From Emcibacteraceae bacterium (GTDB taxonomy: Bacteria > Pseudomonadota > Alphaproteobacteria > Sphingomonadales > Emcibacteraceae), in assembly GCA_021774795.1 (NCBI GenBank), contig JAJFIR010000014.1:124001-188000 (forward strand): a stretch of DNA of 64,000 bases, given 5' to 3'. How positions within the stretch are numbered: position 1 is the stretch's first letter; every line of letters starts with the position of its first letter. Shown here one piece after another: positions 10,687 to 50,715 of the stretch. The translations under genes were made by a program, and so were the position numbers. The notes under the pieces were generated by a model that did no database searches, was not told the origin of the DNA, and saw only the letters and a program-made list of their open reading frames with translations.

Positions 10687-10758
10687 TCATAACGGCGCTC
10701 GGTCCTGACTTGTTTAATAAAACAACGGAACCCTAGCCGCACATAAATAGGTCATCTG

Positions 10759-10773
10759 ACACTAATTTAGTGT
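10759..10773. promoter_or_regulatory. 7-bp inverted repeat (operator-like) upstream of the EamA gene
   Basis: ACACTAA-T-TTAGTGT is a perfect 7-bp inverted repeat with a single central base, in the 213-bp gap between the EamA and PNPOx-like genes (both minus strand). It could control the transporter or lie in the PNPOx 3' region. Confidence 0.35.
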
Positions 10774-10803
10774 TCGAATATGTCAAGTACATAAAATCTT
10801 GTA

Positions 10804-11475
10804 TTAACGCATTTTTCCAAATGAGTTGGGAAACGCATCTTCCTTAAGCCATTTTTCTTCAAGGGGCGGAAAGTCGGGATTTTGATCTGTTTTCTCTTTC
10901 CAATTTACTTTTCCACTCCAGCTTTTTATGTCAATACGGTAAGCGCGCGTGCGAGCCAAGTCTTCTTCTACTATTGGACTAAAGTCCTTGTTTAATTCCA
11001 TCGGCTTGAAATATTTTTCTATAAGGCCGTAAAAGGCATGCTTTTGTTCTTCTTCCGTGATTACTTCGACGATTTCACCAAACGCCATCACCGATTTAAA
11101 CTGAGCAGAAAAATTAAGCGCCCGGTTCGACGGTAGCAACAATCCCATTTCTGAGGTGCAAAAGCATATTTTATTATGGCGTTTTGTATTGGCATCACGG
11201 CGGCCCATCATCGCGCCATGCATATAGATGCAGTGTTCGCCTTCGTCATACCAATATGTCATTGGATGAATGAATGGCTGATCATCCCAACGCGTTCCAA
11301 AATATCCCATTGGCGCGCGTTTGATAAAATCTTTAATCCACTCGTCTTCCTGTACCATGTGCCGACGACGTTGTTTATTTTCCGGGCGACTTTTCAAATC
11401 ATAACCACGTTTTTTCGCACGTGTTTTTTTGACTTGGTGTGGTTCTGTAACTTCTGACATTTTCTTTACTCGCAT
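10804..11475 (-). CDS. Pyridoxamine-5'-phosphate-oxidase-fold flavin-binding protein
   Basis: The central part (about 50-185) fits the PNPOx-like split barrel: APMGYFGTRWDDQPFIHPMTYWY, then CIYMHGAMMGRRDANTKRHNKICFCTSE, then SVMAFGEIVEV. This is the arrangement of FMN- or haem-binding stress proteins of the NimA/flavin-nucleotide-binding group. The N-terminal 40 residues are very basic (KKTRAKKRGYDLKSRPENKQRRRH), unusual for the family and suggestive of nucleic-acid or membrane contact. The ATG at 11475 is used; ATG 11460 is equally possible. Precise role unknown. Confidence 0.75.
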   Translation of the reverse strand: MRVKKMSEVTEPHQVKKTRAKKRGYDLKSRPENKQRRRHMVQEDEWIKDFIKRAPMGYFGTRWDDQPFIHPMTYWYDEGEHCIYMHGAMMGRRDANTKRHNKICFCTSEMGLLLPSNRALNFSAQFKSVMAFGEIVEVITEEEQKHAFYGLIEKYFKPMELNKDFSPIVEEDLARTRAYRIDIKSWSGKVNWKEKTDQNPDFPPLEEKWLKEDAFPNSFGKMR

Positions 11476-44311: not shown

Positions 44312-45940
44312 ATGTCGCACCGATTAATATCATCTGTCAAAAACATATCTATTGTGCTCACCTCTATAACCCTAAGTATTCTGGTCGCTGTCCAATCGTC
44401 TTTTTCTCAAAGTAAACCAAACATTATTTATATTCTGACCGATGATCAGCGCTATGACGAACTCGGCATCTTAAATCCCTTATTAGATACGCCAAATATG
44501 AACGCAATCGCAGAAAATGGCGTACATTTTAAAAATGCTTTTGTAACAACCGCCCTTTGCTCTCCAAGTCGTGCGACGATCCTCACCGGGCAATATGCCA
44601 ATACTCATGGTGTTGTGGACAATAACGCTCAATTACCCGAAGGTACTATATTTTTCCCAAGCTATATGCAGGATGCGGGATATCAAACAGGCTTTATCGG
44701 TAAATGGCACATGGGTGATCAGGGTGATAACCCGCAACCCGGGTTTGACAAATGGGTAAGCTTCGAAGGACAGGGCAATTACTATCCGGAACTTTCAGAC
44801 GGAAGTATTGCTCAGCTGAATATCGACGGTACTCAGGTCGATCAAAAAGGATACATCACTGACGAGTTAACCGATTACGCAATCGACTGGCTTGATACAG
44901 TGGACAAGGAAAAACCATTCTTCCTTTATTTTTCGCACAAGGCCGTTCACGCGGATTTTTATCCCGCAGAGCGATACGAAAATCAATATGCTGATAAACA
45001 GGTAGAATTACCGGAAAATATGGCCGACACACCGGAAAACTACCGCGGCAAACCTCGTTGGGTTAAAGATCAGCGCAGCAGTTGGAACGGCGTTGACTTC
45101 CCCTATCATAGCACTTTAGATGTTGGTGAATATAAAATGCGCTACCACCGCACCCTTACAGCTGTCGATGACAGCATTGGAAGGGTACAGGAATGGCTAA
45201 AGGAAAATGGCCTTGCTGAAAACACCATCGTTATGTTGATGGGTGATAATGGCTTCATGTTTGGTGAACACGGCTTAATAGACAAACGCAACGCTTACGA
45301 AGAAAGCATGCGGGTTCCGCTACTTGCGATGGGACCCGGCTTTGAAAAAGGTAAAGTGGTCGAAGAGGTCGTCGCTAACTTAGACATTGCGCCAACAATA
45401 CTGGAAATAGCCGGTATTGAAAGACCGGAACAATTTCAAGGGCGAAGCTTTACTAAATTGGGAAGCGGCGCGGAGCTTGATGAACCATGGAACAACGAAT
45501 TTGCCTACGAATATTTCTGGGAATATGATTTTCCGCAAACACCAACCACATTCGCGGTCAGAACGGACAAATATAAGTTGATCCAGTATCACGGAATTTG
45601 GGACCGCGAAGAACTTTATGACATGGTCAATGATTCTACGGAAATGAATAACCTTGCTGATGACCCGGATATGATAGAAGTAAAAGTAGCCTTAAGAAAA
45701 AGGATATATGCGCTTTCTGCCAACACGGGCGGTGAACATGTCGTGCCTTATACGGAACGTACCCACAGCGGTTATCGCTTTCGTGACAAAACGGCAATTC
45801 GTGCCGCTGACTTTCCAAAAGAATGGTTAAGAACCGGGGCAGAAGCCGACAGGTTCGAAGCCGACTTCGATGATAGCAGAGAAAAGTTTGAAAGATTACA
45901 AAGAGAGCAAGAAGCACTAGATGCGAAAAACAAGGATTAA
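44312..45940 (+). CDS. Secreted type I sulfatase, copy 1
   Basis: Arylsulfatase-fold hydrolase of 542 residues, exported by a signal peptide (IVLTSITLSILVAVQSSFSQ). Metal-binding start NIIYILTDDQR has the Asp pair at 44-45. The active-site motif CSPSR (C83 to R87, CxPxR) is converted to formylglycine by FGE or anSME in the maturation step. GKWHMG and GDNGFMFGEHG follow, and a C-terminal DUF4976-like part (RTDKYKLIQYHGIWDREELYD). It probably removes sulfate from a carbohydrate. A second, highly similar copy follows 3 bp later. Extra C-terminal charged tail (REKFERLQREQE). Confidence 0.92.
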   Translation: MSHRLISSVKNISIVLTSITLSILVAVQSSFSQSKPNIIYILTDDQRYDELGILNPLLDTPNMNAIAENGVHFKNAFVTTALCSPSRATILTGQYANTHGVVDNNAQLPEGTIFFPSYMQDAGYQTGFIGKWHMGDQGDNPQPGFDKWVSFEGQGNYYPELSDGSIAQLNIDGTQVDQKGYITDELTDYAIDWLDTVDKEKPFFLYFSHKAVHADFYPAERYENQYADKQVELPENMADTPENYRGKPRWVKDQRSSWNGVDFPYHSTLDVGEYKMRYHRTLTAVDDSIGRVQEWLKENGLAENTIVMLMGDNGFMFGEHGLIDKRNAYEESMRVPLLAMGPGFEKGKVVEEVVANLDIAPTILEIAGIERPEQFQGRSFTKLGSGAELDEPWNNEFAYEYFWEYDFPQTPTTFAVRTDKYKLIQYHGIWDREELYDMVNDSTEMNNLADDPDMIEVKVALRKRIYALSANTGGEHVVPYTERTHSGYRFRDKTAIRAADFPKEWLRTGAEADRFEADFDDSREKFERLQREQEALDAKNKD

Positions 45941-45943
45941 TTA

Positions 45944-47470
45944 ATGCGTATTGTTCTCATACTATGCTCTATCATCATCGCGTCATGTAGCCCGCTTCAG
46001 GAACAGACACGATCTGATAAACCGAATATCATCTATATCCTGACCGATGATCAGCGTTATGATGAACTGGGAATATTAAACCCGCTTTTAAACACACCGA
46101 ACATGGACGCGCTGGCAAATGACGGAGTTCATTTTAAAAATGCGTTTGTTACGACCGCGCTATGTTCCCCTAGCCGCGCAACGATCCTCACCGGGCAATA
46201 TGCCAATACTCATGGTGTTGTGGATAATAACGCCCCGATACGCGACGGCACTGTCTTTTTCCCAAGCTACCTTCAGCAGGCAGGTTACAAAACCGGCTTC
46301 TTTGGCAAATGGCACATGGGTGCGGAAGGTGATCAACCCCAACCCGGATTTGATAAATGGTTAAGTTTTGAAGGACAGGGCCATTATTATCCTGATCTTC
46401 CCGATGGTAGCATTGCGCAGTTTAACATTGACGGCGAACATGTTGATCAGAAAGGATATATTACAGATGAGCTTACTGATTACGCAATTGATTGGCTGGA
46501 TGGTCTAAACAAACAAGAACCCTTCTTTATGTATCTTTCTCATAAAGCGGTACATGCGCTTTTCTTACCTGCTGAAAGATATAAAGATCAATATTCAGAT
46601 AGCCAGGTAAATATGCCGGATAACATGGCCAATACTGAAGAAAACTACCGCGGCAAGCCCCGCTGGGTCCGCGATGCCAGAAACGGATATCATGGTGTAG
46701 ATTTTCCTTATCATGCTAATGAATTATCGGTTGCCGCTTATAAAATGGAATATCACCGTACCCTTAGCGCCGTTGATGATAGTGTTGGCCGCGTTCGCGC
46801 TTGGCTTAATGAAAATGGCCTCGCCGAAAATACTATTGTTATGTTGATGGGCGACAATGGTTTTTTATTTGGTGAACACGGAATGATCGATAAAAGAAAC
46901 GCATATGAAGAAAGCATGCGGGTTCCCCTACTCGCAACTGGGCCCGGATTTGAAGGCGGAAAAGTGGTTGATCAGGTGGTTGCAAATCTGGATATAGCAC
47001 CAACAATTCTTGACCTCGCCGGTGTATCCAAGCCCGATCACTTTCAAGGCGATAGCTTTTCAAAACTTCCAACCGATGAAGACGCTAGAACAAATTGGAA
47101 TAATGAATTTGCTTATGAATATTTTTGGGAATATAGCTTCCCGCAAAACCCGACCACCTTCGCCGTCAGAACTGATAAATATAAATTAATTCAGTACCAC
47201 GGTATTTGGGACCGCGAAGAATTATATGACATGGAAACGGACACGGCGGAAATGAATAACCTTGCCCTTGACCCTGCCTATGAAGAAACTGTGGTCGCGC
47301 TTAGAAAGCGTATTTTTGCCCTTATGGGTGACGCAAACGGAAGGCATATTGTTCCCTATACTGAACGCAAAAATGGCGGCAACCGTTGGCGCGGCAAAAA
47401 TAGCGAAGACGGTGTTAAGGCCGGCGACTTTCCACCGGAATGGCTAAAGGAAGGCCAGCCAAAACAATAA
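45944..47470 (+). CDS. Lipoprotein type I sulfatase, copy 2
   Basis: Paralogue of the preceding sulfatase (508 residues) in tandem, same fold and motifs: CSPSR at C74 to R78, GKWHMG, MGDNGFLFGEHG, and the DUF4976-like end. The N-terminus differs: MRIVLILCSIIIASCSPLQ has a lipobox with C15 as the lipidation site and Ser at +2, so it should be anchored in the outer membrane rather than free. It is translated with copy 1 (3 bp gap). A 44-nt stretch that covers residues just after the active-site motif is identical to copy 1. Confidence 0.92.
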   Translation: MRIVLILCSIIIASCSPLQEQTRSDKPNIIYILTDDQRYDELGILNPLLNTPNMDALANDGVHFKNAFVTTALCSPSRATILTGQYANTHGVVDNNAPIRDGTVFFPSYLQQAGYKTGFFGKWHMGAEGDQPQPGFDKWLSFEGQGHYYPDLPDGSIAQFNIDGEHVDQKGYITDELTDYAIDWLDGLNKQEPFFMYLSHKAVHALFLPAERYKDQYSDSQVNMPDNMANTEENYRGKPRWVRDARNGYHGVDFPYHANELSVAAYKMEYHRTLSAVDDSVGRVRAWLNENGLAENTIVMLMGDNGFLFGEHGMIDKRNAYEESMRVPLLATGPGFEGGKVVDQVVANLDIAPTILDLAGVSKPDHFQGDSFSKLPTDEDARTNWNNEFAYEYFWEYSFPQNPTTFAVRTDKYKLIQYHGIWDREELYDMETDTAEMNNLALDPAYEETVVALRKRIFALMGDANGRHIVPYTERKNGGNRWRGKNSEDGVKAGDFPPEWLKEGQPKQ

Positions 47471-47531: not shown

Positions 47532-48185
47532 ATGTTACGAGTAATCTTAATATCATTTCAAATACTTTTCTTTTCTACGTTTCAGATTAAAGCAGAAGAA
47601 GTACAAAGTACTGTAAACTTATATGGTACAACCTTTATCTATGGTGCGCCGCTGTGGATTAATACAAACGACCCGAATTTCAAGACTACCGACTTACTGA
47701 AAATGAGTAAAAATTTCCGCGATCAAAAAGGCCCTTCATTTATTTTAGAGGCGATTCCGGTGAATGAAAATTTTGAAAACTGGACAACTATGTTTGCTGT
47801 AAAAGCCTTTAATGTTGGTCGTAAAGCACCTATGGGGGCCTGGGAAGACAATACACTTGCCACATTCAGACAAGTATGCGGAGGTCTTTCAATTCAATAT
47901 TTGGAACAACAATCCGATATATCCCTAGTGCAGATCATTTGCCCTAAAATATTAGGATATAATCAAGATGGATATAATGATGGTGTAGGTGAGATTGGAT
48001 TATTCGCATTTTATGTAAATAATACAACAGCAATAAGCCATTATATAGAATGGAGAGGCAATGCCTTTAGTCCTACTAACAAAGCAGAATGGCCAGTATC
48101 AGAAGTAATAATACAAAAGGCCATAAATGATATGAAGCAAACTAGGGCTATTAACGAAAATAGTATAGTTAGCTTTAATGAATAG
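47532..48185 (+). CDS. Hypothetical secreted protein
   Basis: A 217-residue protein with a signal peptide (LRVILISFQILFFSTFQIKA). No family is recognised. The mature part has mixed beta character and two cysteines (RQVCGGLS and QIICPKILGYNQDG) that may pair. GGGGAA lies just before ATG 47532; a TTG at 47520 is in frame but less likely. It lies between the sulfatases and the fic region, and its base composition is AT-rich. Function unknown; it may be a late acquisition with fic. Confidence 0.6.
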   Translation: MLRVILISFQILFFSTFQIKAEEVQSTVNLYGTTFIYGAPLWINTNDPNFKTTDLLKMSKNFRDQKGPSFILEAIPVNENFENWTTMFAVKAFNVGRKAPMGAWEDNTLATFRQVCGGLSIQYLEQQSDISLVQIICPKILGYNQDGYNDGVGEIGLFAFYVNNTTAISHYIEWRGNAFSPTNKAEWPVSEVIIQKAINDMKQTRAINENSIVSFNE

Positions 48186-48200
48186 ATAAATTCACTTCCG

Positions 48201-48266
48201 CTAAATCAAACCCGCTAGCGGCGAAGATGGATCAGCATAGGGATTCTTCGAACGTTTTCCGCATAA
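48201..48266 (-). pseudogene. Remnant copy of the thiG 3' end
   Basis: On the minus strand this stretch reads [14 protein letters not shown] followed by TAG. It matches the true ThiG end [16 protein letters not shown] comparison with 49684-49749 gives 53 of 66 identical bases (44 of the first 50), and most differences in the conserved part are synonymous. It begins 11 bp after the fic stop. The two copies are in the same orientation and enclose fic. Confidence 0.8.
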
Positions 48267-48276
48267 CTTAATAAAA

Positions 48277-49407
48277 CTATACTCTTACCAGCTGCATCAA
48301 AGGTTCAAATGAATAGAGTGCTGCTTTTCTTCCAGCCGCTTCTTCTATTGTTGTCAACAAGCCTTTTTCGGCCAGTATTTTAGTAATTCTCTTTGCCGGT
48401 TGAGGCGGAATTCCACTTTCGCTCTTAAAAAAATTATTACGAAACACTGGATTAGCAAAAATAAAATCTAATGCCTGAATATGCCACTGAGTCACAAGCA
48501 AATCTCTAAACATTTCTTTCATTTCATCATATAATGATTGGATGTTTTCTGAAATTTCAAGATTCTTAATTGCTTGTTTTTCGATGGCTTCAAGAAAGAA
48601 AACACACCATTCTGTCCAAGCACCACTTTTTGACACTTCTCGCATCACATCAATATATTGCTCTTTTTTCTCTTCAAAATACCCACTTATATAAAAATGA
48701 GGTGCTGAAATAATGCCACTTTTCCATAATAGCAATGTAATTAGCATTCTTCCGATGCGCCCATTACCATCTTTGAAAGGATGCAATGCTTCAAATTCTA
48801 TATGTGATAAGGCTATTTTTATTAGTGTTTGATCTTCACTTGTGTCAAGATATTTAAACAGATTTTCAAGTCCATCATTTAACTGTGTAGGTCTGATTGG
48901 TACAAATAAAACTCGTCTCTTAGTCTGATCAGCTAGGTAATTTTGTTCAGTTTTAAATTCTCCGGGATTTTTCCTAGCTCCGCGGCCAAATGATAGGAGT
49001 TCTTTGTGCATTGCTCTTATAAACCATTTATTAATTGGCTTGTTTTCATTGAGATATTCTTGCGCGATTTTCATTGAAAAGTGATATAGAACTGTTTCAA
49101 ACACTTCACTTCGATACTTTTTATTATTTTTTTCACCTTCAACATGATCTGCTTCATATTGCAGGATTTCATCCATAGTACTTATCGTACCTTCCATACG
49201 GGACGAGATAACAGCTTCCTGTTTTCTTAAGGGTGCAAGTAAAATTTCGTTGTTATGCATATTTTTAAGCATTTGATCAAAGCGCGCTATAGCATCTGTT
49301 GCTTTAACTATCGGATCGATTAATTTTTCATAATCTAATTTTTCAATAGGAAATTGCCCATAATGATACTCAACAGCATCATCAAAATTTAATTCATCTT
49401 TTAACAT
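48277..49407 (-). CDS. fic: Fic-domain AMPylator, class II (self-inhibited)
   Basis: Fic enzymes transfer AMP or another nucleotide from NTP to a protein hydroxyl. The catalytic motif [12 protein letters not shown] is at 209-220 with the catalytic H209. The inhibitory helix S-S-R-M-E-G (68-73, S-xxx-E-G) lies N-terminal, which defines class II; release of Glu72 activates such enzymes. The C-terminal about 70 residues ([40 protein letters not shown]) look like a winged helix. AAGGTGAG precedes ATG 49407. No antitoxin gene is adjacent. It is enclosed by two thiG-tail copies, so it seems to be an inserted cassette. Confidence 0.9.
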
Positions 49408-49417
49408 CTTCTCACCT

Positions 49418-49599
49418 TGATCATCAAAAATACATCATTATAATACACAAAATTAATTGAGTTTCAATTTTTATTATTTTCGATCTTCAATCTGATTTGG
49501 ATGTGTTTAACAACCTTCATGTACGTTTGAGTATCAAATTTATACTATTTTGATCGTCAAAATTGTTTGATGGTGCTAGATGATCATCAAAATTGTTTG
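49418..49599. repeat. Direct repeats upstream of fic
   Basis: TGATCGTCAAAATTGTTTG (49551-49569) and TGATCATCAAAATTGTTTG (49581-49599) differ by one base and start exactly 30 bp apart. A third, shorter copy TGATCATCAAAA is at 49418-49429 just above the fic ribosome site. The phase of three helical turns suggests a binding array. The rest of the 276-bp gap is AT-rich with no recognised gene. Confidence 0.55.
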
Positions 49600-49683
49600 T
49601 CTATCATGCTTCTTGATTTTTAATATACAAATAAAGATGCAGTCAAATTAACTACACTCTATATAATGAGAAAGCAAAAAAAC

Positions 49684-50490
49684 CTAAATCAAGCCCGCGA
49701 GCGGCGAAGACGGATCAGCGTAGAGTTTCTTCGGCATTCTTCCTGATAAATAAGCATCCCTACCTGCCTGAACTGCGTGGTTCATGGCGCGTGCCATCAG
49801 TATGGGGGCTTTGGCTTCGGCAATGGCGGTATTCATCAGAACACCGTCACAGCCAAGCTCCATGGCCTGCGCCGCTTCGGATGCGGTGCCAACCCCCGCA
49901 TCAACAAGCACGGGAACACTGGCATTTTCAACAATGATACGAATTCCCACCGGGTTTTGAATACCAAGGCCGGAACCGATCGGCGCGCCCAGTGGCATAA
50001 TCGCGCAGCAACCGATGTCTTCAAGGATTTTTGCCTGTATTGGGTCATCATTGCAGTAAACCATAACCTGAAAACCTTCTTTGATTAGCGTTTTGGCGGC
50101 TTCCACGGTTTCCGGCATATTGGGGTATAATGTTTTTTGGTCCCCTAGCACTTCAAGCTTCACAAGGTCCCAACCACCGGCTTCACGCGCAAGACGCAGC
50201 GTACGAACCGCATCATCGCCGGTAAAGCATCCTGCTGTATTGGGAAGGTACGTGTATTTTTTAGGATCGAGATAATCCACCAACATCGGCTCTCCCGGGC
50301 TGGCGATATTAACGCGGCGCACCGCAACGGTCACTATTTCGGCGCCTGATGCCTCGACCGCCAATTTGGTTTCTTCAAAGTCTTTATATTTACCCGTACC
50401 AACGATTAAACGAGAGGAGTATTCTGTACCCGCAACAGCAAAATTATTAATATTATTTTCTGAATTATTTTCTGAATTATTTTCTGGCAT
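49684..50490 (-). CDS. thiG: Thiazole synthase ThiG
   Basis: Forms the thiazole phosphate moiety of thiamine from DXP, dehydroglycine and ThiS-thiocarboxylate. The 268-residue sequence has [35 protein letters not shown] with the Schiff-base lysine, [29 protein letters not shown] and [10 protein letters not shown]. An unusual N-terminal extension [16 protein letters not shown] is encoded by a 12-bp tandem repeat. It sits 21 bp behind thiS. Its last 66 bp have a diverged second copy beyond fic. Confidence 0.95.
50452..50487. repeat. 12-bp tandem repeat in thiG 5' end
   Basis: Three copies of ATTATTTTCTGA (last base differs in copy 3) at 50452-50463, 50464-50475 and 50476-50487. The 12-bp unit adds four residues (ENNS) per copy, so slippage keeps the frame. 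Confidence 0.85.
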
Positions 50491-50511: not shown

Positions 50512-50715
50512 TCAACCACCACCAATGAAGTGGACAATTTCCAAGTTATCGCCGTCATCCACCATCACTTGGTCAAAAGTCGATTTTGGCACAATCGCCA
50601 AATTATGTTCGACCGCAACTTTGTCTTCTTCAATTTCAAATTTTGTCAATAAATCACATAGACTTAATGCGTTTTCCAAACTATGCGGGTCACCGTTAAT
50701 TTTCACATTTATCAT
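50512..50715 (-). CDS. thiS: Sulfur carrier protein ThiS
   Basis: A 67-residue ubiquitin-like protein starting MINVKINGDPHSL and ending IVHFIGGG, whose C-terminal Gly-Gly is thiocarboxylated by ThiF/IscS for thiazole synthesis. VAVEHNLAIVPKSTF matches the family. It lies immediately before thiG on the same strand; other thi genes are not in the window. Confidence 0.92.
   Translation of the reverse strand: MINVKINGDPHSLENALSLCDLLTKFEIEEDKVAVEHNLAIVPKSTFDQVMVDDGDNLEIVHFIGGG

Follow-up and report, generated by a model that had tools for sequence, protein, structure and literature searches.

The window (the whole stretch of DNA that was analysed, 64,000 nucleotides) contains, on its minus strand, an intact thiG gene (49684..50490; PF05690, E=6e-110) with thiS upstream of it (50512..50715, minus strand; PF02597, E=2.5e-9). 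Behind thiG, on the same strand, lies a fic gene (48277..49407) coding for a 376-aa protein with Fic_N and Fic domains (PF02661 and PF13784). Upstream of fic there is a region (49408..49683, minus strand) in which a repeat search found a 19-bp sequence twice (49551-49569 and 49581-49599), perhaps a candidate operator. On the other side of fic, after a spacer of 10 bp (48267..48276, assigned to no strand; 11 bp according to the first-pass annotation), a second thiG 3′ tail is stranded (copy B, 48201..48266, minus strand), as a direct repeat of the joined tail, with which thiG itself ends (copy A, 49684..49749, minus strand).

The second tail is real, as had been claimed. Aligned without gaps and in the same orientation, the two copies are equal at 53 of 66 bases, the similarity being strongest over 48201-48250 (88%), whereas the next-best 66-base stretch on both strands of the whole window equals copy A at 34 of 66. 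The pair was also recovered by a repeat search of the window and, when the last 50 bp of thiG were compared with the whole of their own genome, copy B was found at 88% (E=2e-11), the remaining four matches having E>=0.43.

Within 48267-49683 the only ORFs of at least 50 aa are fic and one antisense ORF of 50 aa, and no recombinase was found among the ORFs of this insert of about 1.4 kb. The fic segment has a GC content of 29-35%, vs 52-53% in thiG, and the region upstream of fic showed no match to the collected loci apart from the window's own copies. The Fic domain scores 69.9 bits with PF02661 (the Pfam cut-off is 24), and the translation contains HPFKDGNGR, a form of HxFx(D/E)GNGR, which we take to be the motif of the Fic/DOC family. 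The match to NCBIfam SoFic is weak, 151 bits, under the cut-off of 550. The nearest relatives of this fic in the same family, in genomes G021 and G022, are 63% identical to it, and plasmids of other Alphaproteobacteria, and also of Riemerella, carry relatives up to 61% identical. Relatives that are 48-49% identical (L346 and L347) adjoin or lie inside plasmid conjugation gene clusters of Paracoccus and Rhodobacter. A phage origin of fic was considered and rejected: 19 of 50,697 phage records match, every one at less than 60% identity.

Two features of the neighbouring DNA are described for themselves. An ORF of 217 aa on the plus strand (47532..48185), with a signal-peptide-like start and no Pfam match, adjoins copy B; in 60 genomes searched it was found, besides the window's genome, only in G035 (37%), so that the stranded tail has another private gene next to it in addition to fic. 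Further on, two adjacent sulfatase-like genes (44312-47470) are about 74% identical across 1.26 kb, and G005 has one gene there.

The genome to which the window belongs comprises 3.93 Mb in 58 contigs, with an estimated contamination of 3.92%, and those of its near relatives that are in named collections are marine MAGs, under the label Kordiimonadaceae or Emcibacteraceae. Comparison with these relatives indicates that fic and the second thiG tail are a derived insertion, as the first-pass annotation had supposed. No match to fic (E<=0.001) was found in any of the 12 same-genus genomes, one of which is only 53% complete, and a single tail is present at nine of ten same-genus thiG 3′ ends, those of G003 and G010 being called single from 805 and 1183 bp, respectively, of sequence past the gene. 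In the same-genus genomes, the content of the DNA from thiG to what we take to be a MATE-like transporter gene varies (tandem TPR-like genes, capA-like genes, sulfatases and a hydrolase-like gene).

The remaining same-genus genome, G009, has two tails, the second of about 225 bp and behind cargo that is not fic. This is the one sister genome in which other cargo was seen between thiG tails, an arrangement that the same annotation had envisaged. We take thiG there to be followed by a TPR-like gene, then by a capA-like fragment to which the second thiG tail (about 225 bp) is fused, and after that by another TPR-like gene and a capA-like gene. The repeated parts are the thiG tail (94%), the start of the TPR-like gene (90%) and the capA-like sequence (96%), while the rest of the TPR-like genes are unlike one another. 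The thiG copies of G009 have kept their frame, and their differences are mostly synonymous (P=0.002). Judging from these sequences, the arrangement would suit either a tandem duplication or a foreign unit placed beside the old one. The locus (L032, 8614-14000) has the TPR-like pair beside thiG, and the capA-like/thiG in-frame fusion is an ORF of 153 aa (10690-11151).

In the window itself, the differences between the thiG copies are distributed unevenly. Six of codons 1-9 of the copy are changed, all of them non-synonymously (LSGRMPKKL vs LCGKRSKNP), and four of the last 13 codons are changed, all of them synonymously. The description of these changes as mainly synonymous therefore applies to the last 13 codons and not to the first nine. 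Over the whole copy there are five synonymous and eight non-synonymous changes, as expected from neutral decay (P=0.22); consequently, the argument that synonymous divergence proves a foreign, diverged allele fails for thiG taken alone, although it does hold for two further genes described below, M28 and metH (P<0.001). Among the compared thiG tails, none is nearer to the stranded copy than the joined one of the window (13 differences in 66 bases, the next having 15), the copy being too short for a placement. Over the last 39 bp, three of ten relatives are nearer to the joined tail, three are nearer to the stranded one and four tie, so that neither copy is clearly nearer.

The genome carries a second fic gene, which was found beside an M28 peptidase gene in a tail scan. 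The scan, run over 400 kb of contig C25 without selection, yielded this one case: the M28 gene (349779-351173) is followed by the fic gene in the other orientation (351302-352438), by a stranded copy of the M28 tail (352583-352675; 93 bp, 83 bp of which are 85.5% identical) and by the next gene, which we take to be gshA-like. Both fic genes found in this genome consequently sit between copies of a gene tail. The M28 site is empty in six of nine same-genus genomes, in which the gshA-like gene begins 37-70 bp past the computed end of M28; in the other three it was not found within 1.2-1.5 kb. The two M28 copies have kept their frame and differ by 11.5 synonymous vs 4.5 non-synonymous changes (P=0.0003). 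The stranded tail is nearer than the joined tail to 14 of 15 relatives (the exception is G002), these relatives not being mutually independent. M28 is the only gene at which the stranded copy emerges as the more native of the two; from the sequences compared, this tail looks native there and the other one, joined to the gene, looks foreign. The first-pass annotation had proposed such an exchange for thiG; it fits this other fic insertion of the same genome, but at thiG itself no copy is favoured. The M28 copies differ at one of their first 30 bases and at 16 of their last 63, as if the outside contribution were confined to the right part of the joined tail, both left parts being resident.

The same layout is found with other cargo. 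In both G021 and G022 the fic gene faces the end of metH. In G022 the order is metH, a gene of 644 aa with Sel1 repeats, a metH tail of 110 bp at 93% and then fic, whereas in G021 metH lies directly against fic. On the far side of the G021 fic there are a transglycosylase (SLT) gene, an RDD gene and a decayed transglycosylase tail of 70 bp, and the corresponding site in G022 has neither the RDD gene nor a second tail. As G022 has the Sel1 gene and no RDD gene, and G021 the reverse, each genome represents the empty site for the other. The layout thus recurs, with empty sites, at three other genes. The metH copies have kept their frame and differ by seven synonymous changes and one non-synonymous change (P=0.0001), whereas the SLT copies of G021 differ by five and ten, respectively, with two in-frame stops. 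At the eight metH sites that differ, G021 has the base of the stranded copy five times and that of the joined copy twice, the remaining site being unreadable. A jump in divergence from the sister genome, as would mark a foreign joined tail, was not significant for metH (P=0.14-0.49) and was marginal for SLT (P=0.03-0.05). Taken together, the alignments give good evidence for probable pre-existing divergence at M28, metH and the G009 thiG, and none at thiG of the window or at the transglycosylase. Because frame was kept and differences are mostly synonymous, the copies of the former three would have diverged as working genes before they met.

Another tail scan covered 103 sources (1.55 Mb, some genomes being included twice) and yielded four real cases. 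Rows L073, L085, L097 and L116 of its output are repeats, but not gene ends, and were rejected; row L117 was left out. The scan that had found the M28 case was of stretches taken regardless of fic (400 kb each of C25, G012, G036 and G019, together with a further 160, 14 and 220 kb from G000, the genome of the window, and G017), and in these a single tail pair, that of M28, was seen in 1,777 genes, with none outside the C25 scan; this count is of tail rows only, head rows being left out.

Direct repeats are also more frequent around fic than around other genes. The fic loci compared were the nearest relatives of the two genes, drawn from as many as 400 genomes belonging to the class and from relatives; 61 of the 78 listed loci were tested, and 17 were dropped because of a duplicate protein, the lack of a long ORF or a short flank. 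With the criterion of a direct repeat of E<=1e-5 within 500 bp on either side, repeats flank six of 61 fic loci vs three of 884 other genes (P=4e-6). The control consisted of 885 ORFs of 250-600 aa from five genomes, four of which had repeats; one of the four was the M28-side fic and was removed. Since the genomes that supplied the controls are not those of most fic loci, the excess may be due in part to horizontal genes at large. The six include a doubtful locus, L269, whose repeats resemble short dispersed palindromes; if this locus and the window are left out, the figure falls to four of 59 (P=0.0004), and if the whole genome of the window is left out, to three of 58 (P=0.004). The repeats are at gene tails in the cases of thiG and M28, at gene heads in G017 (94 bp, 95.7%) and G137 (111 bp, 85.6%), and in a 5′ region in G327 (56 bp, 82%). 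Among six plasmid-borne relatives of fic, none had flanking repeats. The G017 fic, which is of the M28 type (L148 and L240), presumably has on one side the end of an apparent type I restriction gene and on the other a small gene, the first 94 bp of which occur twice. The first of these 94-bp copies runs into the end of a different gene, a fusion resembling that of G009.

In the best reading, the process would be a one-sided homologous insertion, which we regard as a variant of insertion with long target duplication; it would amount to homology-facilitated illegitimate recombination in which the join falls within the anchor gene. For the locus of the window, we give about an even chance to the proposal that fic was acquired horizontally, as a single gene, and reached its place behind thiG by one-sided homologous recombination. 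On the incoming DNA, fic would have been preceded by the end of a related thiG, which would have paired with the resident thiG end as an anchor. The far end, just past fic, would have been joined without real homology slightly upstream of the resident stop codon. thiG would then stay whole with one tail, and the resident tail would be stranded behind fic, useless and free to decay; selection would retain only joins by which the gene is not broken. The parts of this model that we infer are the donor molecule, the route of entry (transformation, conjugation or other) and the incoming thiG copy. It is supported by metH, since the stranded tail in G022 retains the flank that is found after the single metH of G021. 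Against it, the changes at thiG itself are those of a copy that was once identical and decayed neutrally, neither thiG copy is clearly nearer to the relatives, and the joined tails of metH and SLT have little or no excess divergence. Moreover, the left third of the thiG copy has only non-synonymous changes and the rest only synonymous ones, a pattern predicted by no simple one-step model. No donor molecule was found from which the far junction could be read. ComEC and DprA are present in the genome; an E. coli control has both, so their presence says little about competence.

A possible, though rather unlikely, explanation is a transposition-like insertion with long target duplication, in which fic would have entered the end of thiG and the resident 50-66 bp would have been copied, the copies being identical at first and the stranded one decaying afterwards. 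The thiG pair is compatible with such initial identity (P=0.22, as under neutrality), the SLT copy of G021 has decayed as such a fragment would, and the 94-bp repeats at the head of the gene next to the G017 fic are still 95.7% identical. Additionally, repeats of tens to about 100 bp at varied targets fit the descriptions of restriction-modification genes in the available portion of one report (PMC3874152). By contrast, M28, metH and the G009 thiG are not compatible with initial identity, as their differences are mainly synonymous and their frame is kept, which a stranded fragment would not do. The relatives' closeness to the stranded M28 copy, in 14 of 15 cases, also speaks against this explanation.

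We hold it unlikely that Fic and other single genes in these marine Alphaproteobacteria are integrase-free one-gene cassettes, each carrying a copy of the neighbour gene's end. If that were true, such a cassette would graft itself onto the end or start of a gene, swap in its own end and strand the native one, so that insertion at a housekeeping gene would be harmless.

A partial tandem duplication of thiG and the DNA downstream of it, followed by deletions and with fic arriving separately, is improbable as an explanation for the window. G009 is the locus that fits it best, its second tail being part of a repeated unit (thiG end, TPR-like start and capA-like start) with the capA/thiG fusion as the joint. 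Around the copies of the window, however, the thiG tail alone is repeated and, at metH and SLT, the sister genome with the empty site shows that the inserted gene is new and that no further sequence has been duplicated.

We regard as very improbable a site-specific integration in which a tyrosine or serine recombinase, acting in trans, would have used the thiG 3′ end and left copies A and B as attL and attR. It would account for an end that is restored and a displaced fragment at the far end, as at integrase targets in the portion available of one source (PMC4383910), for the exact 11-bp run that copies A and B have in common, and for the point near codon 10 with changes of a non-coding kind on one side and synonymous ones on the other, as expected of an attP arm. 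The mixed sites of metH would also suit a two-part crossover (by way of a circle or an att site), which explains them at least as well as the one-sided model. However, the insert of 1.4 kb lacks a recombinase, the two fic genes of one genome are at thiG and M28, and the fic genes of G017 (of the M28 kind) and G137 are at gene heads; with such different targets, they would not be the work of one enzyme with one att site. The att-like arrangement suggested earlier is consequently not supported as an att site in the strict sense, as homologous fic genes adjoin different genes at heads and tails alike.

Lastly, an assembly artefact or chance similarity, which the 58 contigs, the estimated contamination and the fragmentation of many relatives might suggest, is scarcely credible given the match of 53/66 vs 34/66, its genome-wide E value and the recurrence of the layout, both in further genomes and on contigs 184 kb and 568 kb long.

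The event is a real, well-marked single-gene gain of ordinary size, one of at least two in this genome. Its recurrence around other genes and with other cargo in related bacteria points to a common way of grafting single genes without breaking their neighbours. Single-gene gains that involve no recombinase make up much of bacterial genome change, and the joining step is rarely visible in them. The stranded gene ends are scars that date the event, mark the join and, at M28, reveal the part from outside, and they offer a simple genome-wide search for such grafts. Additionally, the excess of flanking repeats ties the toxin-like fic to the mobility described for restriction-modification genes. Among the literature matches listed there was no account of fic moving in this way, and thiG, as an integration site, was absent from them.

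The closest known systems are of several sorts. Insertion with long target duplication is a term used for restriction-modification genes (Nobusato et al. 2000 and Furuta et al. 2010, as cited in PMC3874152, PMC3031569, PMC1643837, PMC4978471 and PMC3154945). According to the available portions of these sources, such insertions resemble those described here in having one or a few mobile toxin-like genes, variable direct repeats of about 100 bp, no need of a transposase or integrase and an empty site in relatives. The repeats in our cases are of similar kind, 66 bp at 80% in the window and 70-225 bp in the others. They differ in that the cargo here is fic, Sel1, RDD or TPR-like genes and the repeated sequence is a neighbouring gene's end; moreover, the M28 and metH copies are diverged alleles and not a fresh duplicate, and the portions available of those sources make no mention of divergence. 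The target end is also regenerated, with a displaced fragment at the far border, in genomic islands at gene 3′ ends, such as tRNA islands, as far as the same portion of PMC4383910 describes them; here, unlike there, we find no integrase, one cargo gene and a different target in each case.

The proposed mechanism resembles that of loci where incoming DNA is anchored by homology at one end and the old gene ends are pushed behind the new gene. In the sections available of the respective papers, homology-facilitated illegitimate recombination is described for Vibrio T6SS effector loci, with old 3′ ends stranded behind (PMC5361080), and “illegitimate recombination assisted by homology” for the dimorphic loci or variable segments of E. 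coli (PMC2884548); in pneumococcus, an excerpted source reports that transformation makes partial duplications (PMC3784515). The displaced 3′ regions of the Vibrio loci, as given there, differ from the new ones, the genes being polymorphic toxins, whereas the tails described here are homologous and the anchor is a housekeeping gene. As for the cargo, the fic of the window is like the Fic/DOC family in its two domains and its motif and unlike it in falling below the SoFic cut-off. The event is consequently of a known general kind, and what is new is that the ends are homologous but diverged and that fic is a recurrent cargo.
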